From Desulfosediminicola ganghwensis (lineage in GTDB: Bacteria > Desulfobacterota > Desulfobulbia > Desulfobulbales > Desulfocapsaceae), in NCBI RefSeq assembly GCF_005116675.2, contig NZ_CP050699.1, positions 5,341,001 through 5,405,000 of the forward strand: a DNA stretch of 64,000 nucleotides, given 5' to 3'. The notes beneath the pieces were generated by a model. It searched no databases. It saw only the letters and a list, made by a program, of their open reading frames with translations, and was not told the DNA's origin. Numbering within the stretch: position 1 is the stretch's first letter; every line of letters begins with the position of its first letter. The position numbers and the translations under genes were made by a program. This document shows, piece by piece, positions 1 through 49,070 of this stretch.

Positions 1-283
1 GCTGCCCATCTGCATCCATGGTGCAGATCGCGTCGTAGCCGTGCTCTGCCGCATAGGCTATCGCCGCCATGATTGCCGCACCTTTCCCTCTGTTTTCATC
101 AAACCTGAGGCTGTGACATTGCAGGTGAGCGACATTTTTCAGGCCGCCATCTTCACTGCCATCATCGACGACAAGAACCGGGTAGCCTGTGATCAGGGCC
201 TTTTCAACCACGGCACCAATAGTCGCTCCATGATTGTACAGCGGGATAACCAGAAGCATTTGCAGATCATTTTCATATTTCAT
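1..283 (-). CDS. Family 2 glycosyltransferase, C-terminus cut by window edge
   Basis: Reading the minus strand from an ATG at 283 gives 94 codons that run off the window. The N-terminus has the GT-A nucleotide-sugar fold signatures: VIPLYNHGATIGAVVE, then LVVDDGSEDG, then ENRGKGAAI, and TMDADGQ, which contains the DxD-like metal/nucleotide site. A GGAGG ribosome site precedes the start. It lies 22 bases downstream of the B12/radical SAM gene and is almost certainly in the same operon. The family transfers activated sugars, often to lipid or polyprenyl acceptors. In this context I infer a head-group or lipid glycosylation role. The acceptor cannot be read from the sequence, and the length and any membrane anchor are unknown because the gene is truncated. 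Confidence 0.85.
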   Translation of the reverse strand, partial: MKYENDLQMLLVIPLYNHGATIGAVVEKALITGYPVLVVDDGSEDGGLKNVAHLQCHSLRFDENRGKGAAIMAAIAYAAEHGYDAICTMDADGQ

Positions 284-305
284 AGATCAATCGCCTCCAG
301 CTGCA

Positions 306-1655
306 CTATATCAGCAGCTCCCATAACGGCCCGACTTTACCTATTTTATGTAACATCGCGATGCGATCATAGAACTGATGGCATGGATAAATCCGATCCA
401 TTCTAGTTGCGAATGAAGCCATGATTTTCGTCTCTATTTCCTGCCGTGTCACTTCCGGTGAGTAATAGAATACGGGCTTCAGCAGGGACTGATCCGCCGC
501 TACCACCCCTTCGGCAATGGCCCGGTCACAAATCGCGGTACCCGGCAATATGCGAATACCGATGAAGGCAAAAACCACTGACTTATCCAGCTGTTCTATG
601 TGCTTCAACCCCTCGTCTACAGTGGCACGTGTCTCGCCCGGGCCTCCGAACATGATGAAGTGCGCGCAGGGGATCTCTTCGGCAATCACATTCTCATGGA
701 CTTTCAGAACATCACCGTAGCTGAACCCCTTGCCGAAGCCGGCCAGGGTTGTATCGGTTGCGCCATCGGTTCCCAGCTCAACTGCCGCAAGCCCCGCTCT
801 TTTCAAAAGTCGTAAATCTTCACGGGAGATATTCTCAGGCCGGAAAAAAGCACACCAGGGAATTGAAATCTCACGGCGTATCAGAGTTTCGGCTATCTCA
901 AGATACTTCCCTGCAGGGTCATTAAAGACACTGTCCGCAAAAAAGAGATACTTGGCACCATGATCTCTATTGAGCCTGACCATCTCCTCGACGACTTCTT
1001 CCGGGTCACGATACCGGATCTTCCGCCCCTCGATGGTAGGGTATGAACAATAGCTGCAGCTATAGGGACAACCACGCTTCGACTGCAAATTGAGCATGCC
1101 GCCATGATTGGTGTAATACTGAGCGGTGGCGATTCCAGGCTCGGCCCTGGTGGCAAAGCTCTCCAGGCGTGGGGCCTTCAGGATCTTCTCCTGGGGAGAG
1201 CGCCCGGCAGCAATCTCCGTAGCCAGCCAGACCATCACCTCTTCACCCTCGCCAACCACCCCGTAATCTGCTTCTAAAAGATCCATCAGTCGCTCCGGCA
1301 TGATGGAAAAGGCTGGTCCACCAAGAACGATCCTGGTGTTCAGGGTCTGCCGTATCAGGCCAACCAACTCAACCACGCCATCCAGATACTCATCGGGAGA
1401 AGCACTATCCACTGTATCCAGATTGCGAATCGAGACTCCGACCAGATCGAACTGCTGCTCCTGCAACAGTTCAACAAAGCCGGCCATCCCACCGTCGCCA
1501 AGCAGGTCAAAATGGCGGGCCGAATGGCCATGTCTGTTTAAAGCCGCCACCACATAGGCCGCGCCAAGTGGAAAAACAGGGTACGGTGTCACCACCTGAT
1601 TGGAAGAGACAATGAGACACCGGGCCTGGGCTTTCGAACTTAGTTCTTCAGCCAT
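306..1655 (-). CDS. B12-binding radical SAM enzyme (lipid-cluster type), 449 aa
   Basis: The N-terminal part (about residues 10-150) is a cobalamin-binding Rossmann domain with LGGPAFSIMPERL and DYGVVGEGEE. It is followed by a radical SAM core whose [4Fe-4S] ligands are C196, C200 and C203 (KRGCPYSCSYCSYP), a CX3CX2C motif. The length is normal for class B radical SAM proteins. The start overlaps the end of the upstream radical SAM gene by 16 bases, which indicates translational coupling. Enzymes of this class use methylcobalamin and/or SAM for methylations, ring formations and other radical C-C chemistry on lipids and antibiotics. Here, between ketosynthase/ACP genes and a glycosyltransferase, it most likely modifies an acyl chain. 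The reaction itself is not predictable from sequence. Confidence 0.9.
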   Translation of the reverse strand: MAEELSSKAQARCLIVSSNQVVTPYPVFPLGAAYVVAALNRHGHSARHFDLLGDGGMAGFVELLQEQQFDLVGVSIRNLDTVDSASPDEYLDGVVELVGLIRQTLNTRIVLGGPAFSIMPERLMDLLEADYGVVGEGEEVMVWLATEIAAGRSPQEKILKAPRLESFATRAEPGIATAQYYTNHGGMLNLQSKRGCPYSCSYCSYPTIEGRKIRYRDPEEVVEEMVRLNRDHGAKYLFFADSVFNDPAGKYLEIAETLIRREISIPWCAFFRPENISREDLRLLKRAGLAAVELGTDGATDTTLAGFGKGFSYGDVLKVHENVIAEEIPCAHFIMFGGPGETRATVDEGLKHIEQLDKSVVFAFIGIRILPGTAICDRAIAEGVVAADQSLLKPVFYYSPEVTRQEIETKIMASFATRMDRIYPCHQFYDRIAMLHKIGKVGPLWELLI

Positions 1656-2899
1656 TTCCTATCTCCGGACAGCTTGGGTGACTGATAGGTTCCATCAGCC
1701 ATTTCCTTTCTCACAAGATCAGTGAAAAGTCGTGCCATCCTGAGGGATTGAGGAACATCGCGATAGAATTCCCGCCAAGCGTATGCATACATCTCCTGCA
1801 AGGTTTCCGGGCTCATATTCTTCGGCTGATAGACAACCTCGGCGGTGGTATAACGGCTCCAGTCCCGATGGAGAATACGCCCCTCTTTCTCATAGGTGGC
1901 GGTCACCGGTGTATGGGGAAACGGTGTGAGAATAGAAAATTCCGACATGTCCACATCGATCTCAATCAGAAAATCAACAAGACGCTTGATGTAATCGGCA
2001 TCCTGGTTATCGGTGCCAAGCAGAACAGCAGCTTCCACTCCGATACCGTGATCCTTGAGTCGTTTAACCCGTTCACGAATAACATCCGAAGTATCGAAAA
2101 CTGCCTGGTACACATACCAGCATCCTGCCTCAGCCGCTTTCGCTATGACATCTTCCTCATCCAGAATTGGGTGGGAAATCCACTTCTTTTTCAGTGGCTT
2201 CAGAGCCTCAAAAAGCTCCATGACCCACTTTTTATCCTGGGCCAGGGAGTTATCCACCAGAAACAGTCGATTGTTATCAATACCCTCAATCTCCGCTACC
2301 ACCTGCTCGATCGGCCGTGGCCTGAACTGCCTGCCGCCAAGATAGGCAGTAGCGCAGGGAAAACAGTTGAATCGACAGCCACGTGAGGCGTGGACCAGAT
2401 CGACCATACGCACGCCCCGATAGACATAGCGCTCTTGATTGAGAATGGAGCGGCGGGCGGGCCCGACACTTTCTATTGGTGGAAAATCATGGAAATAATC
2501 ATACTTTGGCGCCAGTCGCTCATTTTCCAGATCTTCTAGTACGCCGGCAAGTCTGCCGTCTTCGGCCTCGCCAAGAAAGATAGAATCGACGAAGGTCGCA
2601 ACCTCCTCGGCATGCAGCATGGTGGAAATTCCACCGGCAATCACCGGAACCCCCAACGACCTGAATTTATCTGCTATCTCACGACCTCGCGGCAATTGGC
2701 AGGTAAGCATCATCGAAAGCAGGACCACATCGGCAGAAGCGGAAAAGTCCAGCTCATCAACATTTTCATCAATAAAAGTAACACTATACTTTTCAGGAAT
2801 TGCTGCAGCGACACAAACCGGACCGTGTGGAGGCAGATGGAATTCAGTCTGCTCAGGTATTTTGTTCCACTTCGGATAAACAAGGATTATGGAGGGCAT
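1640..2899 (-). CDS. B12-binding radical SAM enzyme, 419 aa
   Basis: This is a second class B radical SAM protein of the operon. The N-terminal cobalamin-binding-like domain includes IDENVDEL, VPVIAGGIST and SIFLGEAEDG. The cluster ligands are C175, C179 and C182 in SRGCRFNCFPC. The start codon lies one base after the stop of the preceding ketosynthase-like gene, so the two are presumably coupled. It is only distantly similar to its neighbour at 306-1655, which suggests two different reactions rather than a recent duplication. The family is known for radical C-C bond chemistry on unactivated carbons. I infer action on the acyl product made by the KS/ACP genes upstream. Confidence 0.88.
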   Translation of the reverse strand: MPSIILVYPKWNKIPEQTEFHLPPHGPVCVAAAIPEKYSVTFIDENVDELDFSASADVVLLSMMLTCQLPRGREIADKFRSLGVPVIAGGISTMLHAEEVATFVDSIFLGEAEDGRLAGVLEDLENERLAPKYDYFHDFPPIESVGPARRSILNQERYVYRGVRMVDLVHASRGCRFNCFPCATAYLGGRQFRPRPIEQVVAEIEGIDNNRLFLVDNSLAQDKKWVMELFEALKPLKKKWISHPILDEEDVIAKAAEAGCWYVYQAVFDTSDVIRERVKRLKDHGIGVEAAVLLGTDNQDADYIKRLVDFLIEIDVDMSEFSILTPFPHTPVTATYEKEGRILHRDWSRYTTAEVVYQPKNMSPETLQEMYAYAWREFYRDVPQSLRMARLFTDLVRKEMADGTYQSPKLSGDRKWLKN

Positions 2900-2900
2900 T

Positions 2901-3443
2901 CTATTGTACCAGAGTTAGGGTTGCAAAAATCTCCTCTCGCTGATCGCCGTCATCGCATACGATCCGGTGATCAAATTCACAGGCAAGCATGAAATCGAGA
3001 TCATTCTGCATGGCAAGGAGCATCCGTGCCTCATCTGTGGCGCATACAAGGGGAGTTTCAATATCAAAAAGGGCATATACAGGGCCAGTTAGCCCAAACA
3101 TAACAGCAACTTCAGCTAAAGGAGTGTTCGGGAGGGTATAACCGAACAGGGCCGGACTGGCCAAACCCGGCCCGGCGCTCATGGTTTCGATAAATGCCTG
3201 GTCCGTATGCAGTGAACCCCATCGGGTTCCACCTATCAGACCGACATTTCTGCCAAGATCACAAAGACGCTGACCCGGCTCAAGCACATTGCTTCCAAAC
3301 AGTTGACGGGCGCATTCAACAATCAACAGCCGGCTAAGCGGTGTCATGCGGCCCCAACGGCTGGGCAACCCTCCCAAAAAGGTGTTTGCGGCAGCAAAGG
3401 CCTCATCGGCAATAAGCTCTATAGGTGATATTTCGTCAGACAT
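2901..3443 (-). CDS. Half-size ketosynthase-like protein (chain-length-factor-like)
   Basis: This 180-residue protein resembles the N-terminal half of a beta-ketoacyl synthase, in particular the stand-alone family found in aryl-polyene clusters (Pfam Ketoacyl-synt_2, PF13723, from memory). Supporting stretches are GLIGGTRWGSLHTDQAF, ASPALFGYTLPNTPLAEVA and FGLTGPVYAL, matching the family pattern of a GS.xTD motif, then a LF.YTLPN motif, then a H/FGLxGP motif. No active-site Cys in an ACxSS context is present, so it cannot condense alone. A structural or chain-length role next to the complete ketosynthase at 7022-8254 is the likely function (inference). Its ribosome site is weak and it is coupled to the gene downstream. 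Confidence 0.7.
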   Translation of the reverse strand: MSDEISPIELIADEAFAAANTFLGGLPSRWGRMTPLSRLLIVECARQLFGSNVLEPGQRLCDLGRNVGLIGGTRWGSLHTDQAFIETMSAGPGLASPALFGYTLPNTPLAEVAVMFGLTGPVYALFDIETPLVCATDEARMLLAMQNDLDFMLACEFDHRIVCDDGDQREEIFATLTLVQ

Positions 3444-3483
3444 AATTTCGGGTCACTTCAAGCCGGAACAAAGACGTCTATTA

Positions 3484-4521
3484 TCATTTTTTCAGCCAGC
3501 AAAGCGGGTCCTCGGCGAAATAATCCCCAGTCACCTGATACGCGTGGCCACGACAGCCATAGCAGTCATCACTCATCTCGCAACTGGCACAGGCACCCTT
3601 GATATGGCTGCGGATATTTCTCATATCCTGCATTACCCTGCTCTGCCTGATTATTTCAGCCAGACTCTGCTGACGTGTCGATCCTGCCGAGACACTTACT
3701 CCCGGACAAGGTTGTATTTCACCGGTGGTGGTAACCGTGCAGGAATATTCGTGGCGGGCACAATGTGATGCGACCAGAGGCGGATGCGGCGTCCAGCCAC
3801 ACTCGAACTCTTCCCTGTCTATGCGGGCCAGTTCCTCAAACATTGCCTTGACCTTTTCCGGCTCGACTTCCAGCTGTTCGCCTTCAGTCGCCCGGCCCTG
3901 ATTGGTCAGAGTCTCCACGTAGGGTGTGATTCCACGGCGTCTGGCCCAGCGCCACAGTTCTGGAAGTTCATCATAGTTCTGTTTGCAGATAATGGTCTCG
4001 ACTCCCAGGGAACTGTGCTCATCAGGGTAGCCGGCATATCTCAGCGCACTCATTGCCTTGACGATGGTGGTATAGGCCCCTTTCCTGCCGGCGAGGCTAT
4101 CCTGAACAGCCTCTTCCCGGCTGTTCATTTTGAGCACAACCCCAACCTGGCGCTGATAGAGCCAGGTTGCAAACTCCTCGGTGAGGTTGATCCCGTTCGT
4201 GAAGAGTTCCACCACCATATCCCCTGCCAGGATATAATCGATAACCTCCCGCAGGTGTGGATAGAGCATCGGCTCACCACCGCCAAGAACGATAATTTTC
4301 TTTGCCCCCAGCCCCTTCGCCTGATCGATAATATCGTAGATCTCAGCCAGGGAAAGTTCGTTGGTCAGGGGCTCACCAGACGAGGCATAGCAGTACACAC
4401 AACGGAGATTGCACACCCTGGACAACTCCAGTTCCACCGATAGCAGCCCGTTATTTTCCCGGCATTCAGCAATTTCTTCCGGGGTAAATTCCATCCCCAG
4501 TTGCTCACCTAAACATGTCAT
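3484..4521 (-). CDS. Radical SAM/SPASM enzyme, 345 aa
   Basis: The radical SAM cluster motif is C37, C41 and C44 (SRVCNLRCVYCYAS), followed by GGGEPML and a typical TIM-barrel core. The C-terminal part carries many cysteines (CARHEYSC, IQPCPG, GACASCEMSDDCYGC and a final C in DPLCW), as in SPASM domains that bind auxiliary [4Fe-4S] clusters. Such enzymes usually modify peptides or carry out dehydrogenations. In this lipid operon a peptide substrate is not obvious, and no small precursor-peptide gene is visible next to it. A good GAGGTGAGG ribosome site precedes the ATG. It lies between the ligase gene and the ketosynthase-like gene in the same transcription unit. Confidence 0.88.
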   Translation of the reverse strand: MTCLGEQLGMEFTPEEIAECRENNGLLSVELELSRVCNLRCVYCYASSGEPLTNELSLAEIYDIIDQAKGLGAKKIIVLGGGEPMLYPHLREVIDYILAGDMVVELFTNGINLTEEFATWLYQRQVGVVLKMNSREEAVQDSLAGRKGAYTTIVKAMSALRYAGYPDEHSSLGVETIICKQNYDELPELWRWARRRGITPYVETLTNQGRATEGEQLEVEPEKVKAMFEELARIDREEFECGWTPHPPLVASHCARHEYSCTVTTTGEIQPCPGVSVSAGSTRQQSLAEIIRQSRVMQDMRNIRSHIKGACASCEMSDDCYGCRGHAYQVTGDYFAEDPLCWLKK

Positions 4522-4588
4522 TGATACCTCACCTCTGGATCTGTATATCTATTTTCGAAACAGATTTTGCCCTTGAGCGGACCTGCAA

Positions 4589-5917
4589 TCATTCTTCGTT
4601 TCGAAAATCAAAATATTTCCTTGCCTTACGACTGCCATCTGCAAACATTGCCGCCTTCACCCCGGCAACACTGTCCACCCGGATAACAGGCTTCACCCGC
4701 AGTCTGGCCTGCAGTTGCTCGACCATGAACTGCACATCCAGGGAGCTGTCGTCACTGCCAACCACCACCGTGATATCATCGGAACCATCCGCAGACTGCC
4801 GGACTTCAACATATGCGCCGGAAATACGGAGATCATCCTGCAGCACATTGAAAATGGTCTCAGGATAAAGAGTGGTACCTTTATACTTCAGTCGCTGGGC
4901 CAGGCGACCTTCCACCGGCCCGAGTCGTTTGGTGTTCCAACCGCACGTGCAAGGGGTTGAATCAAGCCTCGCCACATCGCCTGTCCTCAGTCGCAGCAAA
5001 GGAAAGCCCTCAACTCCCAGAGGTGTCACAACTACTTCCCCCTGCTCGCCATCCGGCAATACCCGCCCTTGGTCATCAACAATTTCCACCAGCATCAGTT
5101 CCGGGTGGACATGGCCTCCTGCCTGGGCTGAACATTCACCAAAAGCGGTCTCAAACTCAGTCGCTCCATAGGATGAATATAGGTTTGCCCCCCAGAGTTT
5201 ATGGAGGTTTTGTCCCAACGGCGTCAATATATTACCCGGGCGTCGGGCCGGCTCACCAATGGTGACAATGGTCTCAATTGAACTTTGCGACACATCAATG
5301 CCGTGTTCATTGCCCCAGCAGGCAAGCTCATATAGAAAGGTCGGAACGCCAACCACTACCCGTGGCCTGAGGGTTTCAATGATCTGCCATTGCCGGGCAG
5401 GCTGGCCGGGACCGTTACGTATAGCTGCAGCTCCCAGCATGGTCACACCACTGTAATAGGCAAGACCGGCGATGAAACAACGGTCCAGAGTAACTGTGAG
5501 CAGCACACGGTCCCGGGCTCGAACCCCCACGCTGTGAAAAGCAACAGCCTCATTGAAAGCCAGCCGCTGCAGATCATTTGCTGTATAAGGGACCATCACC
5601 GCGTTACCAGTTGTGCCTGAAGTGAGCGCCACGTCGACGATACTCTTCTGATCACGAACACCGAACTTTTCCGGAAAACGGTCCAGGTCTTCCCGGGTGG
5701 TAAATGGCAGGTGAGTGAGATCGCTGATTGAGGACAACTCAGCTTCATCAAGACCAATAGCGTCAAATGCTTCCCGATAAAAGGCAGTCGTTCCCGCCCG
5801 ACGGATATGCTTTTTCAGGGATATGAGCTGTACCGCTTCAATCTCTTTCAAAGGCTTTTCCCTCAGGGCAAACGCTTCCTGCAGGCTGTACCTATTCTGC
5901 TCAACCATCTGATTCAT
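4589..5917 (-). CDS. PaaK-like adenylate-forming ligase, 442 aa
   Basis: This belongs to the ANL superfamily and is closest in form to phenylacetate-CoA ligases. The P-loop-like motif TSGTTG sits at residues 99-104, YGATE at 250-254 and the RTGD motif at 311-314, followed by a small C-terminal lid domain. The family activates a carboxylic acid as its acyl-adenylate and transfers it to CoA or a carrier protein. With an ACP, a ketosynthase and a chain-length-factor-like gene in the operon, it most likely loads a starter acid on CoA or ACP, as the ligase of aryl-polyene clusters does (inference). The substrate could be aromatic or aliphatic. The start lies 7 bases after the acyltransferase stop. 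Confidence 0.85.
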   Translation of the reverse strand: MNQMVEQNRYSLQEAFALREKPLKEIEAVQLISLKKHIRRAGTTAFYREAFDAIGLDEAELSSISDLTHLPFTTREDLDRFPEKFGVRDQKSIVDVALTSGTTGNAVMVPYTANDLQRLAFNEAVAFHSVGVRARDRVLLTVTLDRCFIAGLAYYSGVTMLGAAAIRNGPGQPARQWQIIETLRPRVVVGVPTFLYELACWGNEHGIDVSQSSIETIVTIGEPARRPGNILTPLGQNLHKLWGANLYSSYGATEFETAFGECSAQAGGHVHPELMLVEIVDDQGRVLPDGEQGEVVVTPLGVEGFPLLRLRTGDVARLDSTPCTCGWNTKRLGPVEGRLAQRLKYKGTTLYPETIFNVLQDDLRISGAYVEVRQSADGSDDITVVVGSDDSSLDVQFMVEQLQARLRVKPVIRVDSVAGVKAAMFADGSRKARKYFDFRNEE

Positions 5918-5923
5918 TTGACG

Positions 5924-6718
5924 TTACATAGTATTGGAAGTTTCAACAGGACCAGAAAGGGGACAACCAGGGAGATCTACATCTGCAAATTGACCGTTTT
6001 CTCTCAAAGTCTGCTCTATTATCTTGTGTACTTCACTGCGCAACTGTCTGACCGCCAGGGCATCATCGCCAATATCGACTGCCGGATAAACCGGGTCCAG
6101 CACAATCAGCGTAACCTCTCCACAGGCCATGAGCCGCTCGCCTGGTGAAAGAATTTTGCCAGCTCCCAGAATACACACCGGCACCAGCGGTCGTCCTGTC
6201 TCAATCGCCAGGGAAAATGCCCCGTTTTTAAAACGTCCCAGCTGATTGTTTCTTGAGCGGTGTCCTTCCGGCCAGATCGTCACGTAACTTCCTTCATCGA
6301 GCAAGGCCTTACACCTGCTGCGTACAGCATCCCACCCCTCTTCGGCATTTGCATAACCAGCAAGCCGCATAAAAAAGCCATACACCGGGATACGAAAAGG
6401 CCAGGAGGTGACAAAGCTGTTCTCAACAGGAATTGCACCAAACAGGTACGGGTCTATGGCAGAATTGTGGTTTGCTACAAAAATAGCGGATTCCGGCAAC
6501 TCACGTGTGCTGTAACGCACCCGGACCGGAGACATAAAAGGAACCAGGCACACCAGCACCCAACCATACCAGCGAATCGCCCGCCTGAGCGCTGAAGGTA
6601 ACGATCTGGAAAAAAGGAGTATCTGCGTTACCAGAATAGATGGCAACAGCAGGATTCCAACTGAGGTGAGCACCAGAAACACCAACCAGAAATAGACATT
6701 CCATATCAGTTTCTTCAT
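5924..6718 (-). CDS. PlsC-like 1-acylglycerol-phosphate acyltransferase
   Basis: The lysophospholipid acyltransferase signatures are present: the HX4D catalytic motif in ANHNSAIDPY (H84 and D89 from the ATG) and the substrate motif WPEGHRSR. The N-terminus is a hydrophobic membrane segment (residues about 5-35). Such enzymes transfer acyl groups from ACP or CoA onto glycerol phosphate lipids at the inner membrane, so this gene offers a route for placing the cluster's acyl product into a membrane lipid. An in-frame TTG at 6730 is an alternative start with GCGGGAA before it; I chose the ATG at 6718. The ACP gene lies directly upstream. Confidence 0.87.
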   Translation of the reverse strand: MKKLIWNVYFWLVFLVLTSVGILLLPSILVTQILLFSRSLPSALRRAIRWYGWVLVCLVPFMSPVRVRYSTRELPESAIFVANHNSAIDPYLFGAIPVENSFVTSWPFRIPVYGFFMRLAGYANAEEGWDAVRSRCKALLDEGSYVTIWPEGHRSRNNQLGRFKNGAFSLAIETGRPLVPVCILGAGKILSPGERLMACGEVTLIVLDPVYPAVDIGDDALAVRQLRSEVHKIIEQTLRENGQFADVDLPGCPLSGPVETSNTM

Positions 6719-6758
6719 GATCACGCCCAATTCATTCCCGCTACAAATGGCGTAACCA

Positions 6759-7022
6759 CTATGCAGCTTCAGCCTGTTCCACCTTTAACTGCAGGAGGAA
6801 CTGGTAGAGGTCGTCAATGGTGCGTATCGACCTGAGCGCTTCTTCATCTGTAAGCTTCATGCCAAACTCTTTCTCCAGCACCACCACCATATCAACGGCG
6901 TCCAGGCTATCAAGACCAAGATCTTCGTAAAGGGTCGCCTCCGGTATCATCTCGGCAGCATCCAACTCAAACTCTTCCGCCAAGACCTCGATCATACGCC
7001 GGCGAATATTTTCATCCTTCAT
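6759..7022 (-). CDS. Acyl carrier protein, 87 aa
   Basis: This is a small acidic protein with the phosphopantetheine attachment site EDLGLDSLDAVDM, where Ser39 should carry the prosthetic arm. The size and the acidic helix II are typical of type II ACPs. Its ATG overlaps the ketosynthase stop in a TAATG arrangement, so the two are translationally coupled. This indicates a dedicated carrier for the ketosynthase at 7022-8254 rather than the housekeeping ACP. Growing acyl chains tethered here would be the substrates for the flavoprotein and the radical SAM enzymes of the operon (inference). The C-terminal tail EQAEAA is slightly longer than in housekeeping ACPs. Confidence 0.93.
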   Translation of the reverse strand: MKDENIRRRMIEVLAEEFELDAAEMIPEATLYEDLGLDSLDAVDMVVVLEKEFGMKLTDEEALRSIRTIDDLYQFLLQLKVEQAEAA

Positions 7023-8254
7023 TACACGTCCATTTTTCTGATCGCCAGGGAGGTATTAACCCCTCCCAGAGCGAAATTATTCTTCAATATTGCAGTAATC
7101 TTTGCCTTCCGTTTCTCCATTTGCAGGTTGGCACCCAGACAACGGGGATCAACCTCCTGGAGATTTCTGGTGGGGATCACATCCTGCCGTTCAAGCATTG
7201 CCAAAACCCCAATCAATTCGAGCGCGCCAGCGGCGCCCAGGGTATGTCCAAGATGTCCCTTGAAGGAGCTGACCGGTGTTTCTCCATCAACCACCGCAGC
7301 AATGGCAGTAGCCTCCGCGATATCACCAAGCTCTGTGCCCGTGGCATGCGCATTGACATAATCAATGTCTTTTGCAGTGAGCCCACCCTCCTCCATAGCC
7401 CTGGACATGGCCCGCATCATCGAGTTCTTGTCCGGGTTCGCGATATGCCGGCTGTCATTGACATTACCGAAGCCCACGATCTCGCCATAGATTTTTGCCC
7501 CGCGCGCCTTCGCCGAGGTGTAACTCTCCAACACGAGAATGCCTGCGCCACCACCACACACGACGCCGTCACGGGCCTGGTCAAAAGGCCGGCAGGCGCC
7601 CTCCGGATTGTCGTTGTTCAGGGATGCAGCACGCAATAAATCAAAGACACCCGTGACCGATGAGTGTGCCTCCTCTGCACCACCACAAAGCATCACCTCC
7701 TGACGACCAGCCTGAATGAGCATATAGCCAAGGCCGATAGCCTGGGATGAAGAGGTGCAGGCGCTGACGGGAGCCCACTGCTCACCCGTGATCCCCAATG
7801 CCAGGCAGACATTGGCTGCACAACTGTGCCCCATCATGGTGAAAAACTCTCCGGACTTAATCTCGCTGAACACTCGATCCGGCAAATATTTACTGTAAAA
7901 GGCCTCATACATGGACGGGCTGCCGGTGGTGGAGCCAATGGCAACACCGGTTTCCCCGCCCTGAACGACATCTTCTGTCAGCCCCGCATCTCCAATCGCC
8001 TCTTTGGTGGCAAGCGCGGCATAAATTGCCATCTGCCCCATGGATCTGCGCACTGCCCGGGGCAGCAGCTTTTTACAGTCAAATTCCGGGACAGGAGCAG
8101 CAATCCGACTGTTCATGCCGGTAATCGAATCCCATTCCGGCATAGCCCGCACTGCGGAGTTACCAGCCCAGATATTTTCAATCAGTTTATCTACCCCAAG
8201 CCCAAAGGGCGAAACAGCCCCTCTGCCTGTGATAACTACTCTGTTCAGACTCAC
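7022..8254 (-). CDS. FabF-like beta-ketoacyl-ACP synthase, 410 aa
   Basis: This is a complete KAS II-type condensing enzyme with the Cys-His-His triad: C166 in SACTSSSQA, H303 in NAHATGTELGD and H337 in KGHLGHTLGAAG. It would condense malonyl-ACP with an acyl-ACP by decarboxylative Claisen reaction. I place the start at a GTG at 8254, which overlaps the upstream flavoprotein stop (GTGA), has GGGGGAAGG before it, and yields the normal FabF N-terminus (VVITGRGAVSPFGLG). A longer open frame upstream is only an antisense-like extension inside the flavoprotein gene. Neither a ketoreductase nor a dehydratase lies in the window, so these steps must be supplied from beyond the left edge or by housekeeping FAS. 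Confidence 0.93.
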   Translation of the reverse strand: MSLNRVVITGRGAVSPFGLGVDKLIENIWAGNSAVRAMPEWDSITGMNSRIAAPVPEFDCKKLLPRAVRRSMGQMAIYAALATKEAIGDAGLTEDVVQGGETGVAIGSTTGSPSMYEAFYSKYLPDRVFSEIKSGEFFTMMGHSCAANVCLALGITGEQWAPVSACTSSSQAIGLGYMLIQAGRQEVMLCGGAEEAHSSVTGVFDLLRAASLNNDNPEGACRPFDQARDGVVCGGGAGILVLESYTSAKARGAKIYGEIVGFGNVNDSRHIANPDKNSMMRAMSRAMEEGGLTAKDIDYVNAHATGTELGDIAEATAIAAVVDGETPVSSFKGHLGHTLGAAGALELIGVLAMLERQDVIPTRNLQEVDPRCLGANLQMEKRKAKITAILKNNFALGGVNTSLAIRKMDV

Positions 8255-9753
8255 CTTGTCACCTTCCCCCATAGATCTTCCAGCCCCAGTATCTCCCCGG
8301 CACCCACAAGCCCGGAAATCGATGCTCCCACCACTCCGGTCATCAATGTTGATTGACCACTCAGATAAAGACCAGGCACACGGGTACGCACATCCGGTGT
8401 AAACTGATCCAGGCAATGCATCGCGCCATAGGCGCAACCCTCAGGGGCTGCCAATTCATCCCTGAATGTCAGCGGCGACCCGGTGGCAAGCTGTTCCACC
8501 TTCCCGCAGACATGCCCCCAGCGTTTCTCGGCGGCACCAACCATTTCATCCGCAACCCTTGTCTTCATTTCCTGGTAAGCCCGTGGTCTCTCTCCTTGCG
8601 AACTAGCAGCAAATTGCTCGACATCCTGCCAATAACCCAGACGGAGCAGAATGGCGCCATGGGGATCTGCCTCTGACATATCTGCGCTGCCGGACCGGGA
8701 GCCCGCGCCGGCCATCATCATCGCTCTTTCACCGGTAGGTGTTGCGGAAAACTGTGGCAGCGGATCACCATTTTCGGGCAACAGGTAATAGTTGAGGGCA
8801 CCGGTTGTGTAATCGATCGCTTTTTCCGTTTTGCAAAATACCGCAAACATCGACAGGCTGTTGGTTAAGGCTTTTAAGCGCTTCCTGTATGCCGGTCTGA
8901 AAACATTTTCCGGCACCATATCGATAACCGCTGAAGGATGCCCTGTAAATATCAACTGGTTACACTGTATTCTTTCTCCATCGGCAAGGTTGACACCGGC
9001 AACTTTTCCCTGTGCCAGGTGAATAGAGACGACCTCCCTGCCGGAGAACATTTCCACCCCCTGCCTCTTCAAAGCCACCGCAAAGCCATCGACAATTGTC
9101 TGGCCTCCGCCGCCGATGGTATACGCACCGGAATAATAGCCATGCGCCACTAAGGAGTGAACTTCCAGCGAAGCCTGGCCAACCGGCACGCCATACAGAA
9201 AGGCAGGAGCAGTCAAAACGGTTTTCAACCGCTGGTCGTTGGTAATTGAATTGAGAAATTCGGCGAGAGATTCCGGGCGTGATTTGTATCCCCGCAAAAA
9301 AGGCGTGAGGGGAAGCTCCGGATTATAAAAAGGAATCCCCGAACACTTTTCTTGTACAGAGCTGAGATAGGTTGTTATTGCATCTTTTTCTGCAGGGAAG
9401 TGAGACTGTAGTTCTTCAGCCAGTCGCTGGTAGGAGAAGTAGCCACGTACAGGTTGTTTACTGTCGAAAAACTCATAACTGTCATGACCATCTTTTGGAG
9501 CAGGCACGACTTGCAGGGCGGGAAGCACCTCACAATAGCGCCAGAGCAAATCAAGGATTTCTCCCTCACCCAGGCAACCTGTGTAGTGAAAACCGACATC
9601 AAAACCTATTTTTTTTCGCCGGAACTGGCGAATTGCACCACCGAACTGCCTCTGTCGCTCAAGAACCAGGACATCTTTGCCATTCTTGGCCAACAAGGTG
9701 GCGGCTGTCAATCCCGCTATGCCGCTTCCGACAACAACAACATCACATTTCAC
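8251..9753 (-). CDS. Phytoene-desaturase-like FAD oxidoreductase, 500 aa
   Basis: The N-terminal dinucleotide fold GSGIAGLTAATLL (residues 9-21) with E32 after VLVLE binds FAD. GFDVGFHYTG and the C-terminal YLSGQSTLMTGVVGASISG match the CrtI/carotenoid isomerase-like amine-oxidase superfamily. The length (500) is typical. Members desaturate, isomerise or saturate polyene chains. In proposed ladderane clusters and in aryl-polyene clusters a flavoprotein of this kind accompanies the KS and ACP genes (family knowledge, from memory). It is the first gene of the operon, with the ribosome site GAGAAGG, and is coupled to the ketosynthase by a 4-base overlap. A polyene or cyclic acyl-ACP substrate is inference. 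Confidence 0.87.
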   Translation of the reverse strand: MKCDVVVVGSGIAGLTAATLLAKNGKDVLVLERQRQFGGAIRQFRRKKIGFDVGFHYTGCLGEGEILDLLWRYCEVLPALQVVPAPKDGHDSYEFFDSKQPVRGYFSYQRLAEELQSHFPAEKDAITTYLSSVQEKCSGIPFYNPELPLTPFLRGYKSRPESLAEFLNSITNDQRLKTVLTAPAFLYGVPVGQASLEVHSLVAHGYYSGAYTIGGGGQTIVDGFAVALKRQGVEMFSGREVVSIHLAQGKVAGVNLADGERIQCNQLIFTGHPSAVIDMVPENVFRPAYRKRLKALTNSLSMFAVFCKTEKAIDYTTGALNYYLLPENGDPLPQFSATPTGERAMMMAGAGSRSGSADMSEADPHGAILLRLGYWQDVEQFAASSQGERPRAYQEMKTRVADEMVGAAEKRWGHVCGKVEQLATGSPLTFRDELAAPEGCAYGAMHCLDQFTPDVRTRVPGLYLSGQSTLMTGVVGASISGLVGAGEILGLEDLWGKVTR

Positions 9754-9847
9754 CTTCTCACCCTACAACAAAACACAAAACCGCCCCCTCAACCCACAGA
9801 AAACATTAATATCTTCCAGTGCTTGCTATCACATGCTACAATATCTT

Positions 9848-9874
9848 CCTGTTATTGTTAACAACAATCACAGG
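9848..9874. promoter_or_regulatory. Palindrome upstream of the lipid operon
   Basis: A perfect 10-base palindrome TTGTTAACAA (9855-9864) is flanked by CCTG and CAGG at the outer ends, about 95-120 bases upstream of the first gene of the lipid operon. It may be an operator for a regulator encoded elsewhere. No clear -35/-10 pair could be fixed next to it, so the call is tentative. The rest of the 271 bases between 9753 and the PagL gene shows nothing else I can name. Confidence 0.3.
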
Positions 9875-10024
9875 TAAATGACCAATTCAATCTCAACGCG
9901 TTATATAGACCATTTCAACGGGATATGCATTATCGAAGAACAAGTATTTGATATGGCGCTCTTACGAGTTCCCGACCAAGGCAGGTAATTCGCTACATCC
10001 ACAAAAGATTTCAGGCCCTTAATT

Positions 10025-10597
10025 ATGCGCAAAATTATAATATTTTTTTTGGCAACTCTCGCGTCAATACTATCCGGCTCTGGTGTTAAACAGGTAAAAG
10101 CATTTAACCTTGCCTCCCCTGAACGAGTAGGAATAGCAATGACAGCCGGTGCAAGTTACCACCCTGCCCCGACATTTGAGTTCGTGCAGCTCAGCGGCCT
10201 TGCTCTCTATGATTACGAACAGATTTTTCCCCATCAGGCACCGGACCAACTCAAATTCAAGCTCGAAACGAACATCGGGGCAGCAGATTTTTCCGGTCTT
10301 CGCCTCATGGCTTCTCTGAACTTTTATGCAGTCTATTATTTAGAAAGATTTCAGACCAATAAGCTGCGACCATATATTGAAGGCGGTGCCGGAATCATCT
10401 ATAGTGATTTTCAGGTTGAAGACCAGGGGCTCAGGATAAATTTTAATCCCCAGGCCGGTATTGGCGTCGAGATCTCAGGCGATGACGGGCGAACATTCTT
10501 TGAAGCGCTGCACGCCACTCACATTTCAAATGGCGGACTGCACAGTGACAATGCAGGGATAAATGGCTTACTTTTCCAATTCGGTTATTTATTTTAA
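10025..10597 (+). CDS. pagL: PagL-type lipid A 3-O-deacylase
   Basis: A signal peptide (residues 1-26, ending KAFN) is followed by alternating beta-barrel strands and an aromatic C-terminus (FQFGYLF), as in outer-membrane barrels. The acyloxyacyl hydrolase signature HISNGG (H166, S168) followed by NAGIN matches PagL, whose His and Ser are catalytic. The position equivalent to the catalytic Glu of the Pseudomonas enzyme is Asn here (N180), a substitution I recall in many homologues. The enzyme removes the 3-O-linked acyl chain of lipid A, remodelling the outer membrane. It is transcribed away from the lipid operon. The ribosome site is weak (AGG about 10 bases upstream). Confidence 0.8.
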   Translation: MRKIIIFFLATLASILSGSGVKQVKAFNLASPERVGIAMTAGASYHPAPTFEFVQLSGLALYDYEQIFPHQAPDQLKFKLETNIGAADFSGLRLMASLNFYAVYYLERFQTNKLRPYIEGGAGIIYSDFQVEDQGLRINFNPQAGIGVEISGDDGRTFFEALHATHISNGGLHSDNAGINGLLFQFGYLF

Positions 10598-11568: not shown

Positions 11569-13035
11569 CTATTTAGTTTCCGCAATACGTTTGTTCGTTC
11601 TGGCAAAACGCAGAAAAGACATCAGATTGCCAAGAAATCGCAGCCAGCTGTCCGGTGACTTCCATAACATGGTTACATACCCCCAAATGACCCGGGCACG
11701 CTGAAAATGTGACCGGTAGAAATCAATAAACAGCTCATCCAGCCTCTCGGCAGTCATCCCTTTCGGCACGAACCGGAACTGCATACAGTCCATCTCCCGC
11801 CAATCTTCATCGAAGGTACCCAACATTTCCCCGCCTTCCCCTTTTATCCCATCGTAGATGGGCGAGCCTGGAAATGGTGTGAATTTTGCCAGGTTGAAAT
11901 CATCGAGATTGAGGGAATGCACATATTCTTTACTTTTTTCGATGCTCTTTTCTGTCTCACCGGGCAACCCCATCATTAACAACCCCTTCACCCTGATACC
12001 GGCCGACTGGATCATGTGCACTTTCTCTTTCAACATCTCCAAGTCAGGATTCTGCCGATGCTTGGCAAGTAAATCCGGGTCACCGGTTTCAATACCGAGG
12101 CTGATCATCCAGCATCCAGCCCTTTTCATGAGTTGCAGCAACTCCGGATCAAGGTGCTCTGCTCTCGCCGCACAGTTGAAAGTGATACCGAGCGGCTGGG
12201 CGATAATCAACTCACAGAACTCGGCAACCCTTTTCCGGTTAAAGGTAAATTGGTCATCGTAGAAATTCAGATGTTTCAAACTGTAGGTCTCTTTCAGGTA
12301 CTTCATATGTCGATAGAGGTAATCGGCAGAATTATACCTGAATGTCCGTTTAAAAACCGAACGGTCACAATAACTGCAGGCATATGGGCAACCTCGACTG
12401 GACAGGCAGCTGCCATTCGGCACTTTGGGGTAATTGAATATAGGCAGGCTGTAGGCGTCGGGATAACCGGCAAGTTTATGGTATGCCGGAAACGGCAGCT
12501 TATCCAGATCCAGCAACTGCTTACGGCGCCCTGACCAGCACACCTCCCCTTGTACATCTTTATAAACGAGACCTTCTATGAGCTTTGGAGTTGCCGGTGA
12601 CTGTAACAATTCACTCAGAGTTTCTTCACCCTCACCAACAACCAGATAATCTATCACTGGATAGTCAAGCAGCACCCGCTCTTTGAGTGCTGAAACGTGA
12701 ACGCCTCCAAAAACGACTTTTACTTCCGGCAACACCTCTTTCGCCATTCTTGCCAGACGTTCTCCATCCAGAAAATTTGCAGTGGTGCATGAAAAACCGA
12801 TAAAAGCTGGTTTATGGACTCGAAGATAATCCTGTATCAACTGCTCGGATTGGGGATGGGCATAACAGTCGATAATATCATTATCAAAGCCTTGTTCTGT
12901 CAGGTAGGCTGAAATCGAGGCCAAACCCAGAGGCGGCATTATATTGGCAAGCCGTGACACATCTCCTGCGGCCTTGCTGCTGCTGTAACCAAGGGGATGA
13001 ACAAGAAGAATGACTTTATTTGTTGTTGTCTGCAT
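11569..13035 (-). CDS. B12-binding radical SAM enzyme, 488 aa
   Basis: The N-terminal cobalamin-binding domain (VILLVHPLGYSSSK, PPLGLASISAYL, VVFGGVHVSA, DYLVVGEGEETL) is followed by a radical SAM core with CX3CX2C in SSRGCPYACSYCDRS. The start at 13035 is chosen because the protein then begins at the usual distance from the B12 domain; the upstream extension to 13107 looks non-coding. The C-terminal part is basic and aromatic (RARVIWGYVTML), possibly membrane-associated. It is separated from the main lipid operon by the PagL and HEAT genes on the other strand, but is of the same enzyme class. The substrate is unknown; lipid or envelope modification is inferred from the surroundings. Confidence 0.87.
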   Translation of the reverse strand: MQTTTNKVILLVHPLGYSSSKAAGDVSRLANIMPPLGLASISAYLTEQGFDNDIIDCYAHPQSEQLIQDYLRVHKPAFIGFSCTTANFLDGERLARMAKEVLPEVKVVFGGVHVSALKERVLLDYPVIDYLVVGEGEETLSELLQSPATPKLIEGLVYKDVQGEVCWSGRRKQLLDLDKLPFPAYHKLAGYPDAYSLPIFNYPKVPNGSCLSSRGCPYACSYCDRSVFKRTFRYNSADYLYRHMKYLKETYSLKHLNFYDDQFTFNRKRVAEFCELIIAQPLGITFNCAARAEHLDPELLQLMKRAGCWMISLGIETGDPDLLAKHRQNPDLEMLKEKVHMIQSAGIRVKGLLMMGLPGETEKSIEKSKEYVHSLNLDDFNLAKFTPFPGSPIYDGIKGEGGEMLGTFDEDWREMDCMQFRFVPKGMTAERLDELFIDFYRSHFQRARVIWGYVTMLWKSPDSWLRFLGNLMSFLRFARTNKRIAETK

Positions 13036-13197
13036 GCTTACACCTGTGAAAGCTACTCTATATTGAAAACGACCTAACTGGTACCTGACCGGCAATGCGG
13101 TGTACATTTCAAAAGATTGAGAGTGTACCCCCGTAAATCCGATTTGTCGATGAGGAGCATAGGATAAACATCAGAATCCTCCGAAGAATATCGCTTG

Positions 13198-13477: not shown

Positions 13478-15472
13478 TTACTGACTACACTCCGGATGTG
13501 CGAAAGGATTGGTATCCACAAAATCGGTGGCGTTCGAATCACAGGGGCTGATACCGCCACGTTCTTCCTGTCTGCTGAAACTGTGGCAGAACAGACAATC
13601 CATCCCTACTCCTTTGTCGACATGGTTGTGCATTCCTGGATGATCCGACTTGAGATTTTTCTCGCGGTGACACTGTGAACAGATCTGAGCCTTTGGTCCT
13701 TTCAGCGCATAACCGAGATTATCAAGTTCACTGAAAGTGGCCAGATCGAGATCACCATGGCACTTGGCACAATCTACATTGGCCGCAGGAGCGATACCGT
13801 GATTGAGCAGCTGGTAGGTATCGGTGGTTACCCACTCGACCGGCTCAGTCGACGGGTATCCCATGTTCACCAGACCGGACTGCACCGCCTGATCAACATC
13901 ACCACTGCCTGCCAGATATTCATAAGTATCCAAAGCGACCAGTTTGCTGTCGCTGCTGACCATTGGCTGAACTCCGGTTTTATACTTAAAAGGGTAGAGT
14001 TTGCCGTCATTGATATCGCCAATTGGGCGAGAGGTCGGGTATGCCCCGGTCTCCGGGTCAATTACCGCTACATCCCCAAGCAGATAGTTGTCACTCAACC
14101 TATTCCAGAATTTATATACCGGCGACAAGTCTTCCCCGATAGTCAACTCCGGATGTCCGGGACCATTGGTGCCATCCGCCGGGGTACCGTCATGGCTGTA
14201 ACGCCAGTCTCTGTTGAGTTCAGTGGCCACTTTCGCATAATGATCAATATGACAGGACTGGCAGGCAACTTTGCTCACGTGCCGATCTGCATCGGTACGG
14301 TTGGCACCTGCCGCGGCATGTCCGCCATCTACATCAAAGCCGGCATGGCAGGTAACGCACTTCACCTCGCTGCCACGGGCCAGGTCATCTGTCGGACGCA
14401 GGTCCGAACCGCGACCAATAGTTTTATGGTTCTGGAATACATGACACGACTGACATTTCAGGTCTGAAGCCATGACATTCATATGAACATCAAAGTTTGG
14501 ATCGCTGTTATTGTCGGTACCTTCCAACAGGGTAGCTCCATGCAGATCGGTGCCGGACATGGAAAGATCGCCGCGCTTGACCGCATTGCCACCGCCTGCA
14601 AAGGCATGACACTTCAGGCAGTTTTTCCTGGTGGGCGCATTAATATTTTGGGTGTAACCATCAAGAACCTGAAGCTCTTCAGCAGTCGGATTCTCCACTC
14701 CAGCCAGACTCGGGGCCATGGAGCCGTCGGCAAGACGAGTTCTTGCCATGGCATAATCCTCATTGTGGCACGCCAGACAGTCGATGTTGGTCTTATCCGC
14801 CTGGGGGTCATCCGGTCTCTTTCCGCGCCCTACGTGGCATTTACCGCAGACCGGCCAGTCTCCGAGAATATTGATACAGTAGCTATTCACAGAATTGGTC
14901 AGCTTGCCCTGCAAGGTGCCATTCTGATTAGCCATCTCCGTGGTATCTCCAACCCACCAGTAATGGGTTGAATCTGCCATTTCGTTGAACTGCTGATCAT
15001 GACAACTCAGACAGTCCAGCGGGTAATTCTGCCAGGTGTTAGAAGCATGCGGGTTTGTGCCACACGCAGGATCAGCCGTGTCGGTCAGGCCATCACAGTT
15101 GTCATCCACCCCATTATCACAAACTTCGCTCGCGCCCGGATTGATGCTTGCAAGGGTATCGTTACAATCTTCCTGGGTATAGCTACAGCTCGGATCAGCA
15201 GGAAAACCATAGCCGTCTCCATCAGCATCAGAACAGACCCCGGCTGTACAAGTGGGATCAGCTCTGTCGATGAGACCATCGCAATTATTGTCTAACCCAT
15301 CGGTGCAAATTTCCGCAGCACCAGGATAAATCAGAGCATTATTGTCATTGCAATCACTCCTTTCAGTAACCCCGTCACCATCGTTATCCACCGGTTTTGC
15401 CGCCATTACTGCTGCTCCTGACAAGGCTGTCATCACGAGCACTAGCGCAGAACACAAAATGAACTTTCGCAT
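13478..15472 (-). CDS. Decaheme cytochrome c with MopE-type metal-binding repeats, 664 aa
   Basis: A signal peptide (cleavage near AVMAA-K, residue 25) directs export. Residues about 40-75 and 102-137 are two copies of the MopE-like putative metal-binding motif (DCND, PGA.E.C, NCDGL.D.ADP.C). From residue 154 there are ten CXXCH heme sites: CLSCH, CGKCH, CLACH, CLKCH, CQSCH, CVTCH, CQSCH, CAKCH, CSQCH and CLFCH. Many further His residues can act as distal ligands. Such proteins carry electrons in the periplasm or at the cell surface; the particular reductase activity cannot be assigned. It is a single-gene unit with its own terminator at 13411-13444. Confidence 0.88.
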   Translation of the reverse strand: MRKFILCSALVLVMTALSGAAVMAAKPVDNDGDGVTERSDCNDNNALIYPGAAEICTDGLDNNCDGLIDRADPTCTAGVCSDADGDGYGFPADPSCSYTQEDCNDTLASINPGASEVCDNGVDDNCDGLTDTADPACGTNPHASNTWQNYPLDCLSCHDQQFNEMADSTHYWWVGDTTEMANQNGTLQGKLTNSVNSYCINILGDWPVCGKCHVGRGKRPDDPQADKTNIDCLACHNEDYAMARTRLADGSMAPSLAGVENPTAEELQVLDGYTQNINAPTRKNCLKCHAFAGGGNAVKRGDLSMSGTDLHGATLLEGTDNNSDPNFDVHMNVMASDLKCQSCHVFQNHKTIGRGSDLRPTDDLARGSEVKCVTCHAGFDVDGGHAAAGANRTDADRHVSKVACQSCHIDHYAKVATELNRDWRYSHDGTPADGTNGPGHPELTIGEDLSPVYKFWNRLSDNYLLGDVAVIDPETGAYPTSRPIGDINDGKLYPFKYKTGVQPMVSSDSKLVALDTYEYLAGSGDVDQAVQSGLVNMGYPSTEPVEWVTTDTYQLLNHGIAPAANVDCAKCHGDLDLATFSELDNLGYALKGPKAQICSQCHREKNLKSDHPGMHNHVDKGVGMDCLFCHSFSRQEERGGISPCDSNATDFVDTNPFAHPECSQ

Positions 15473-48517: not shown

Positions 48518-48764
48518 TCTTCAGTTGCCCGAGACCAACCGCCGCCCCATTACAAACCGATTCTGAGATTACTCACCAGATGTGATGGGGCTCAAAAAAA
48601 CACCTGATTTTTTTTCCTCACACTTTCCTTCCTACTTCAACCGAACTTCGCATAGAAACGATTTCGTTAGCAGAAATGCGAACAACTTCATGATGGAACA
48701 CACTATCTAGTGGTTGACTTTGCCCCCTCGCACAATATAAAGTAGGCGCCTCATTGTATTGGTT

Positions 48765-49036
48765 CACTTCAGGTGAAGTGTGGCAACAGGGAATCTGGTG
48801 AGAAGCCAGAACTGTCCCGCAGCGGTTATCAGAAACGAAAACCATTCAAATGCACTGGAACTGTCAGGATCTTCATCCGGAATTTTTTCGTATGTAAACC
48901 AGATAGTCCGGGAAGCTATGGTGATTAGGCAACAGTGGTTCTTACCAGGCACGACCTGCGCGAGAATCCCACTTACGCCGTTGTTGATACCAGCACTACG
49001 GCAAAATGTCTGAAAGTCCGAAGACCTGCCAATACC
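48765..49036 (+). promoter_or_regulatory. Cobalamin riboswitch upstream of nrdD
   Basis: Core elements of the B12 riboswitch are seen in order: the hairpin CACTTC-AGGT-GAAGTG (48765-48780), GGGAATCTGGTGAGAAGCCA, ACTGTCCCGCAGCGGT, and near the end the B12 box-like AGTCCGAAGACCTGCC (ending 49030). The middle, peripheral part is long. The aptamer ends about 35 bases before the nrdD ATG, so ligand binding could block the GAGGAGAGGAG ribosome site or stop transcription. High adenosylcobalamin would then lower synthesis of the B12-independent ribonucleotide reductase, which implies that a B12-dependent class II enzyme is encoded elsewhere (inference from known NrdJ/NrdD arrangements). Confidence 0.88.
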
Positions 49037-49070
49037 TCACAGTCATTGACCACCTTCGAGGAGAGGAGTT

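Follow-up and report, generated by a model that had tools for sequence, protein, structure and literature searches.

Gene content and organization of the run

The window, meaning the whole 64,000-nucleotide stretch of the Desulfosediminicola ganghwensis genome that was analysed (G000:C1:5341001-5405000; the genome is one contig of 5.65 Mb), contains at 1-9753 ten minus-strand genes for ketosynthases (KS), an acyl carrier protein (ACP), an adenylate-forming ligase, an acyltransferase, a glycosyltransferase, a flavoprotein and radical S-adenosylmethionine (SAM) enzymes, all of them recovered by an open reading frame and Pfam check (Table 1). These genes are the first half of a 23-gene run that is probably an anaerobic variant of the aryl-polyene (APE)/flexirubin lipid pathway, in which oxygen-sensitive radical SAM enzymes would serve both in starter supply and in tailoring of a predicted polyene product. 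The ten-gene coupled unit of the original prediction is confirmed by intergenic gaps of -19 to 67 bp and a conserved gene order, and the joining of an aryl-polyene-like set to radical SAM enzymes is borne out, with genes of lipid attachment and export in addition. To the left of base 1 the run extends a further 11.6 kb (to L001:8392) with 13 more whole genes and the remainder of GT2-DUF2062, giving 21,362 bp in all and no gap above 90 bp; the ketoreductase (KR), dehydratase and exporter genes that were to be sought on that side are present as KR, two dehydratases and MMPL. A third cobalamin radical SAM gene, B12c, is outside the coupled run, upstream of it with two plus-strand genes between. 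A promoter scan of 9500-10300 gave three minus-strand matches where shuffled sequence would be expected to give 1.1, which is not taken as evidence of a promoter.

Conservation of the run across phyla

A profile search of genome contigs with the cobalamin radical SAM enzyme B12a returned 499 pattern stretches, 452 of which encode a B12a relative; the best 80 of the 452 were kept as loci, and counts out of 80 refer to these. They derive from Desulfobacterota, Nitrospirota, Phycisphaerales, Verrucomicrobia, Lentisphaeria, Acidobacteria, Elusimicrobia, Myxococcota and others, and across these phyla, between which B12a is about 60% identical, the linkage of radical SAM and KS genes is kept, with a KS-family gene in 76 of the 80 loci; the original prediction of such a linkage thus stands. 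The gene order is conserved as well: of 74 testable loci, 67 have B12b directly after B12a, and 71 of 79 have the half-size ketosynthase gene KSs2 no more than two genes upstream of B12a, so that chance association is ruled out. KSs2 matches at E 0.001 or better were obtained in 20 of the 58 genomes searched (own genome included), 15 of them at 61 bits or more.

By tblastn of the 23 proteins, the order is nearly complete in G003, G001, G013 (without B12a and SPASM), G020 (without SPASM) and G040; G017 has no match there for ApeI, TE and KSx, the last three genes, and its KSb match is in two pieces. Four genomes (G044, G056, G043 and G037) possess the core, the FLAV-KSb-ACP2-PlsC-PaaK-SPASM module not being found within 9-11 kb upstream; in G055 the module is elsewhere on a cluster contig in the opposite orientation, and the stretches of G050 and G042 are too short to judge. 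B12a is the most similar protein (79-87%) in the order-keeping relatives, and in the more divergent G004 KR is more similar. A gene for a BtrH_N-DUF4872 protein (L136:15530-16558, with relatives in L081, L091, L128, L131 and L142; 187 and 167 bits) is beside the cluster in 6 of the 80 loci; the family is associated with acyl transfer from ACP.

Exchange of the SPASM enzyme with an ammonia-lyase

The gene directly after the ligase encodes the SPASM radical SAM enzyme in 32 of the 37 ligase-bearing loci among the 80, and an aromatic amino acid ammonia-lyase in four (L068, L116, L132 and L142, with gaps of 81-166 bp); in L107 a different gene follows the ligase and the lyase is elsewhere in the locus. 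The lyases of L068, L132, L107 and L137 match PF00221 with 530-565 bits, and those of L142 and L116 (cut off) are 73% and 78% identical to that of L068. SPASM is found in 39 of the 80 loci and the lyase in six, the two together in none. In a new sample of 395 genomes from the phylum, the ligase was matched at 1e-90 or better in 12, of which two were already represented and ten were added; as L157 proved to be the same contig as L074, nine new loci were counted, six with SPASM, one with a lyase (L158, 73% identical) and two with neither (L159 and L165). The post-ligase slot of the combined 46 loci is thus occupied by SPASM in 38, by the lyase in five and by another gene in three, and Fisher tests, which ignore kinship, gave 2.3e-6 and 3.0e-6. 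Genome-wide, a SPASM orthologue (460-617 bits) is present in six of six SPASM-type genomes and none of six lyase-type genomes (best 92 bits); no orthologue appears at 1e-25 in G020, to which L068 belongs, and G775 (L158) reaches 109 bits. On a ligase tree of 42 rows, for which the SPASM and lyase labels had been fixed beforehand, L068 falls within the Desulfobulbales SPASM rows and L132, L142 and L158 elsewhere, requiring two state changes; a single clade of lyase rows is rejected by the approximately unbiased (AU) test (p 3.4e-39), and the swap arose at least twice on this tree.

Among solved structures, the L068 lyase matches tyrosine aminomutase best and histidine ammonia-lyases next. Other PF00221 genes occur elsewhere in five SPASM-type genomes (G000, G001, G003, G017 and G022) and are absent from eight; the one in the present genome reads NQEDHVSM and adjoins a gene resembling urocanase by eye, and the slot lyases with the motif region (L068, L132, L142 and L158) read NQDVVSM, a motif by which histidine enzymes are told apart from tyrosine/phenylalanine enzymes. 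Because the SPASM enzyme shares its slot with the ammonia-lyase, never accompanies it and has no orthologue in lyase-type genomes, it probably supplies the aryl starter. The original prediction that all three radical SAM enzymes of the unit act on an ACP-bound chain is changed for SPASM, for which making the starter is more likely than action on such a chain. Neither a SPASM-for-lyase swap nor an interpretation of this cluster family as an anaerobic aryl polyene pathway was found described in the titles and abstract openings of the literature searched.

Ketosynthases and other aryl-polyene-like components

KSa, KSb and KSx retain Cys-His-His motifs, none of which was found in KSs1 (264 amino acids (aa)) or KSs2 (180 aa). 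A structural model of KSs2 (53 sequences, mean pLDDT 95.6) retrieved KS and chain-length-factor (CLF) folds with Foldseek, the short chains of 7f28 (7f28_A/C) ranking 2 and 6, and shows KSs2 to be built of one thiolase fold, as is ApeC, the half-size CLF of APE systems (PMC8358021; papers are cited here and below for the portions of their text that were available). KSa matches the Xenorhabdus doucetiae ApeO-ApeC entry 6qsp at 2.6e-47, more weakly than several FabF entries, and the ligase matches the phenylacetate-CoA ligase 4r1l at 1.2e-43. The best NCBIfam model for KR is FabG (291.8 bits, cut-off 273), and the second is FlxB (269.3 bits, below its cut-off of 340). The ApeP-like dehydratase (31.6 bits, cut-off 27), the second dehydratase as FabA (27.5 bits, cut-off 23), LolA (75.3 bits) and MMPL (33.2 bits) are all above their cut-offs; no enoyl reductase was recognised in the 23-gene run. 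The APE parts of E. coli include a thioesterase, a LolA-like protein, an RND transporter, acyltransferases and a glycosyltransferase (PMC8253772).

Radical SAM enzymes

The SPASM enzyme is below every NCBIfam cut-off, its nearest families being AhbD, TIGR04053, NirJ2 and MftC. AhbD, NirJ and MftC have propionate or tyrosine side chains as their targets, and such chemistry would fit a SPASM enzyme that makes an aryl acid, which is offered as a lead only. B12a is below both Pfam cut-offs (B12-binding 28.9 versus 32.1 bits, Radical_SAM 27.4 versus 29.5 bits) and all NCBIfam cut-offs (best 51.7 bits), with its CxxxCxxC motif kept; the closest structures to its model (pLDDT 90.2) are AprD4, MgmA and TsrM, and the model search returns general relatives (these three, MiaB and CysS) that do not decide the reaction. 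The best solved match of B12b is TsrM, a tryptophan C-methylase (1.1e-43). Cobalamin radical SAM enzymes are mostly methylases, a proposed ladderane synthase being among the few others (2026 preprint, PMC13142503); methylation is taken as the default for B12b, and B12a is left without an assigned reaction. Homologues of B12c at 200 bits or more are present in 14 of the 80 loci; one adjoins B12b inside the cluster in L116, L128, L131, L142 and others, and one occupies the place of B12b in L110 and L120. The window also has a cobalamin riboswitch (Table 1), which is of interest given the several B12 radical SAM enzymes of this genome.

Distribution among anammox-like genomes

The radical SAM part had been predicted to be of ladderane type, and its distribution does not support this. 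The anammox marker HZS_alpha (PF18582) proved unspecific: it occurs in 77 of 392 genomes, and in some of these 12 times. The 25 genomes treated as anammox-like, a status presumed from this marker, are those in which PF18582 is matched once or twice in an open frame 715-844 aa long, the rest of the matching genomes being left out; some of the 25 may not be anammox, such as G271, with no flavoprotein match above 23 bits. The SPASM of the large cluster (456-479 bits) is present in five of the 25, the remaining 20 reaching at most 161 bits, and B12a has no close orthologue in any (best 233 bits), versus 673-712 bits in eight of eight genomes of distant phyla. In the Kuenenia-like G153 the large cluster reads PaaK-SPASM-B12b-KR-ACP-MMPL-FLAV-GT2, and a small locus reads KS-KS-FLAV-B12 radical SAM, preceded by a gene of 149 aa that is taken to be FabZ. 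Flavoprotein matches of at least 64 bits were found in 10 of the 11 anammox-like genomes searched, and the small locus was read in five (L147, L150, L152, L153 and L156); two of these five genomes, G187 and G313, have contigs of near chromosome length and lack the large cluster. Being commoner in anammox-like genomes than the large cluster, the small locus is the better ladderane candidate.

Alternative explanations

A pathway to ladderanes or their precursors, held in common with anammox bacteria, in which radical SAM enzymes would close a KS-made polyene, was rejected as the principal explanation on this distribution and has little chance of being correct, the ladderane link being weak: B12b belongs to TIGR04072 rSAM_ladder_B12, the G153 cluster unites PaaK, SPASM, B12b, KR and ACP with MMPL, the flavoprotein and GT2, and the Kuenenia and Desulfotalea psychrophila clusters are syntenic (Rattray 2009, PMC2649909), but the SPASM-bearing cluster is missing from most anammox-like genomes, B12a lacks a close orthologue there, the smaller flavoprotein-B12 radical SAM locus is commoner, and no ladderanes were found in D. 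psychrophila according to the available portion of the same paper. The link to a related cluster in that organism, without known ladderanes, agrees with the original prediction. The expression efforts made by Javidpour 2016 (PMC4790861) were without success, to go by the available portion of that paper. A pathway for polyunsaturated fatty acids or hydrocarbons was put forward for the D. psychrophila cluster in 2009. It is favoured by the C31:8 and C31:9 polyunsaturated hydrocarbons measured in that organism (PMC2649909) but offers no evident place for an aryl-type ligase, for the lyases in the slot of relatives or for the envelope attachment and export genes, and there is very little chance that it applies.

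It is unlikely, though less so, that the run is an aryl polyene pathway in which SPASM is a tailoring enzyme, the starter comes from central metabolism and the lyase exchange reflects coincidence or a change of product. Such an arrangement would accommodate L159, L165 and G013, which have the ligase and neither enzyme in the locus or slot, and the E. coli pathway, whose starter is 4-hydroxybenzoate (PMC8253772) and which, in the portion of the source available, needs no dedicated starter gene beside ApeH; it leaves unaccounted for the shared slot, the lack of any locus with both enzymes, the two or more switches and the genome-wide absence of a SPASM orthologue from lyase types. Several observations weigh against an APE/flexirubin variant with SPASM as starter enzyme. 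L107, L159, L165 and G013 have the ligase but neither SPASM nor a lyase in the slot after it, and a strict need is countered chiefly by G013, G498 and G655, which have the ligase, neither enzyme after it and no SPASM orthologue. The TM-score of the KSs2 model to the APE CLF is moderate (0.62 by query length) and FabF-type KSs score alike, so that the model establishes fold type and not orthology. The second dehydratase misses the ApeI-like model (24.2 versus 28.5 bits), the small gene in the ApeN position (L001:10461-11009) is without a Pfam or NCBIfam match and can be labelled DUF3261 by position only, and the flexirubin cut-offs are missed by the ligase (FlxY, 423.3 versus 520), by KR as stated and by the L068 lyase (FlxA, 454.9 versus 700). 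L129, L133 and L137 have B12a homologues (60-63% identical) with no recognised KS gene within reach, where the enzyme may have a different role; the L130 locus is short.

Proposed pathway

In the anaerobic APE/flexirubin-type pathway favoured here, SPASM would take the place of an ammonia-lyase and form an aromatic acid, whose likeliest source is an aromatic amino acid, and the FlxY-like ligase would activate this acid and load it onto ACP. The analysis shows the genes present, their linkage, the KSs2 fold and the exchange in the slot; the substrate, the product and every reaction are inferred. The full KSs with their half-size ApeC-type partners (KSs1 and KSs2), the FabG-type KR and the two dehydratases may then extend it to a conjugated polyene, which the CrtI-like flavoprotein could oxidise or isomerise and the cobalamin radical SAM enzymes could tailor at the head or chain, for example by C-methylation. 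The thioesterase, PlsC, LpxL-like acyltransferase and GT2 are predicted to join the polyene to a glycolipid, and by analogy with APE systems the MMPL exporter, LolA and a small lipoprotein-like protein may deliver it to the outer membrane. It is possible, if doubtful, that SPASM is a non-homologous substitute for tyrosine/phenylalanine ammonia-lyase and that B12a in addition performs undescribed chemistry, possibly C-C bond formation on the conjugated polyene.

Other features of the window

A gene for a PagL-like lipid A deacylase is encoded near the run (Table 1) and another at L068:8758-9429 (61.3 bits); the BLAST-linked group containing a PagL-like gene occurs in 11 of the 80 loci and hints that the product ends near lipid A.

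Table 1. Genes of the run and further features, with window positions (genes left of base 1 are listed in order)
Feature	Position	Strand	Basis
FLAV, CrtI/CrtD-like FAD oxidoreductase (desaturase or isomerase type)	8251..9753	-	PF01593 62.6 bits; nearest NCBIfam CrtD, 105 bits (cut-off 549.7)
KSb, beta-ketoacyl-ACP synthase, Cys-His-His	7022..8269	-	PF00109/PF02801, motifs
ACP2, acyl carrier protein	6759..7022	-	PF00550 49.6 bits; GLDSLD motif
PlsC-type acyltransferase	5924..6730	-	PF01553 71.6 bits
PaaK, adenylate-forming ligase, FlxY-like	4589..5917	-	NF053551 FlxY 423.3 bits, below cut-off 520
SPASM radical SAM enzyme, proposed aryl-starter supplier	3484..4521	-	PF04055 + PF13186; aromatic amino acid lyase in its slot in some loci
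KSs2, half-size KS without Cys-His-His, ApeC-type chain-length-factor fold	2901..3443	-	PF00109 23.0 bits; model; Foldseek
B12a, cobalamin radical SAM enzyme, conserved family without naming NCBIfam model	1640..2899	-	
B12b, cobalamin radical SAM enzyme	306..1655	-	TIGR04072 rSAM_ladder_B12, 601.6 bits (cut-off 360)
GT2-DUF2062 glycosyltransferase	1..283 (5' end only; cut by base 1); L002:7105-8283	-	PF00535 + PF09835
Rest of GT2-DUF2062	left of base 1		
LpxL-like acyltransferase	left of base 1		
ACP1	left of base 1		
149 aa protein	left of base 1		no Pfam match
KSa	left of base 1		
KSs1, half-size KS	left of base 1		
KR	left of base 1		
ApeP-like dehydratase	left of base 1		
LolA	left of base 1		
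MMPL	left of base 1		
Small lipoprotein-like gene	left of base 1		
FabA-type dehydratase	left of base 1		
4HBT thioesterase	left of base 1		
KSx, third full KS	left of base 1		
B12c, third cobalamin radical SAM enzyme, BchE/HpnJ-like below cut-offs	11569..13107	-	PF02310 92.8, PF04055 89.5 bits
PagL-like lipid A deacylase gene	10025-10597	+	57.2 bits
Likely secreted multihaem cytochrome (by eye)	13478-15472	-	664 aa; many CxxCH motifs; N-terminal aspartate/asparagine-rich repeats
Cobalamin riboswitch	48743-49047	+	79.6 bits (gathering 31.5)

Significance

Clusters called 'ladderane' by antiSMASH have been reported in Desulfobacterota and other phyla (PMC9902471) and outside anammox bacteria (PMC11968836). 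With 452 B12a stretches, and with many phyla represented and a KS gene present in nearly all among the best 80, a large uncharacterised lipid pathway of anaerobes may therefore be carried under the name of another molecule. If SPASM is the substitute supposed above and B12a has the chemistry proposed, many non-anammox 'ladderane' clusters would specify a separate, widespread class of outer-membrane lipid. New here is the exchange of SPASM and ammonia-lyase in the slot after the ligase, from which a concrete class of substrate can be proposed for one radical enzyme. For work on ladderanes, the pattern of presence and absence shifts attention to the smaller flavoprotein-B12 radical SAM locus.

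Comparison with known systems

The 'ladderane' clusters of the Kuenenia kuste3335-3352 type and of D. psychrophila, the latter compared through the available portion of Rattray 2009, share with the run PaaK-SPASM-B12b (TIGR04072), the flavoprotein, KSs, KR, ACP, MMPL and GT2, but in the Kuenenia-like genome SPASM is 49%, B12b 35% and the B12a-like protein only 30% identical, and by SPASM score this type of cluster is absent from 20 of the 25 anammox-like genomes. Flexirubin clusters resemble the run in that its ligase is closest to FlxY, its KR has FlxB as second-best model and the lyase of its relatives is in the family that includes FlxA, whereas the radical SAM enzymes set the run apart. 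The APE clusters of E. coli CFT073, Xenorhabdus doucetiae and Acinetobacter baumannii have in common with it a KS with half-size CLF, KR, dehydratases, ACPs, a thioesterase, acyltransferases and/or a glycosyltransferase, LolA and MMPL/RND export (PMC8253772, PMC8358021). Unlike the E. coli cluster, the run has no aryl head methyltransferase of the E. coli type recognised among its 23 genes by Pfam, and unlike all of these APE clusters it possesses a PaaK-type ligase, three full and two half-size KSs, a CrtI-like flavoprotein, and SPASM and B12 radical SAM enzymes.

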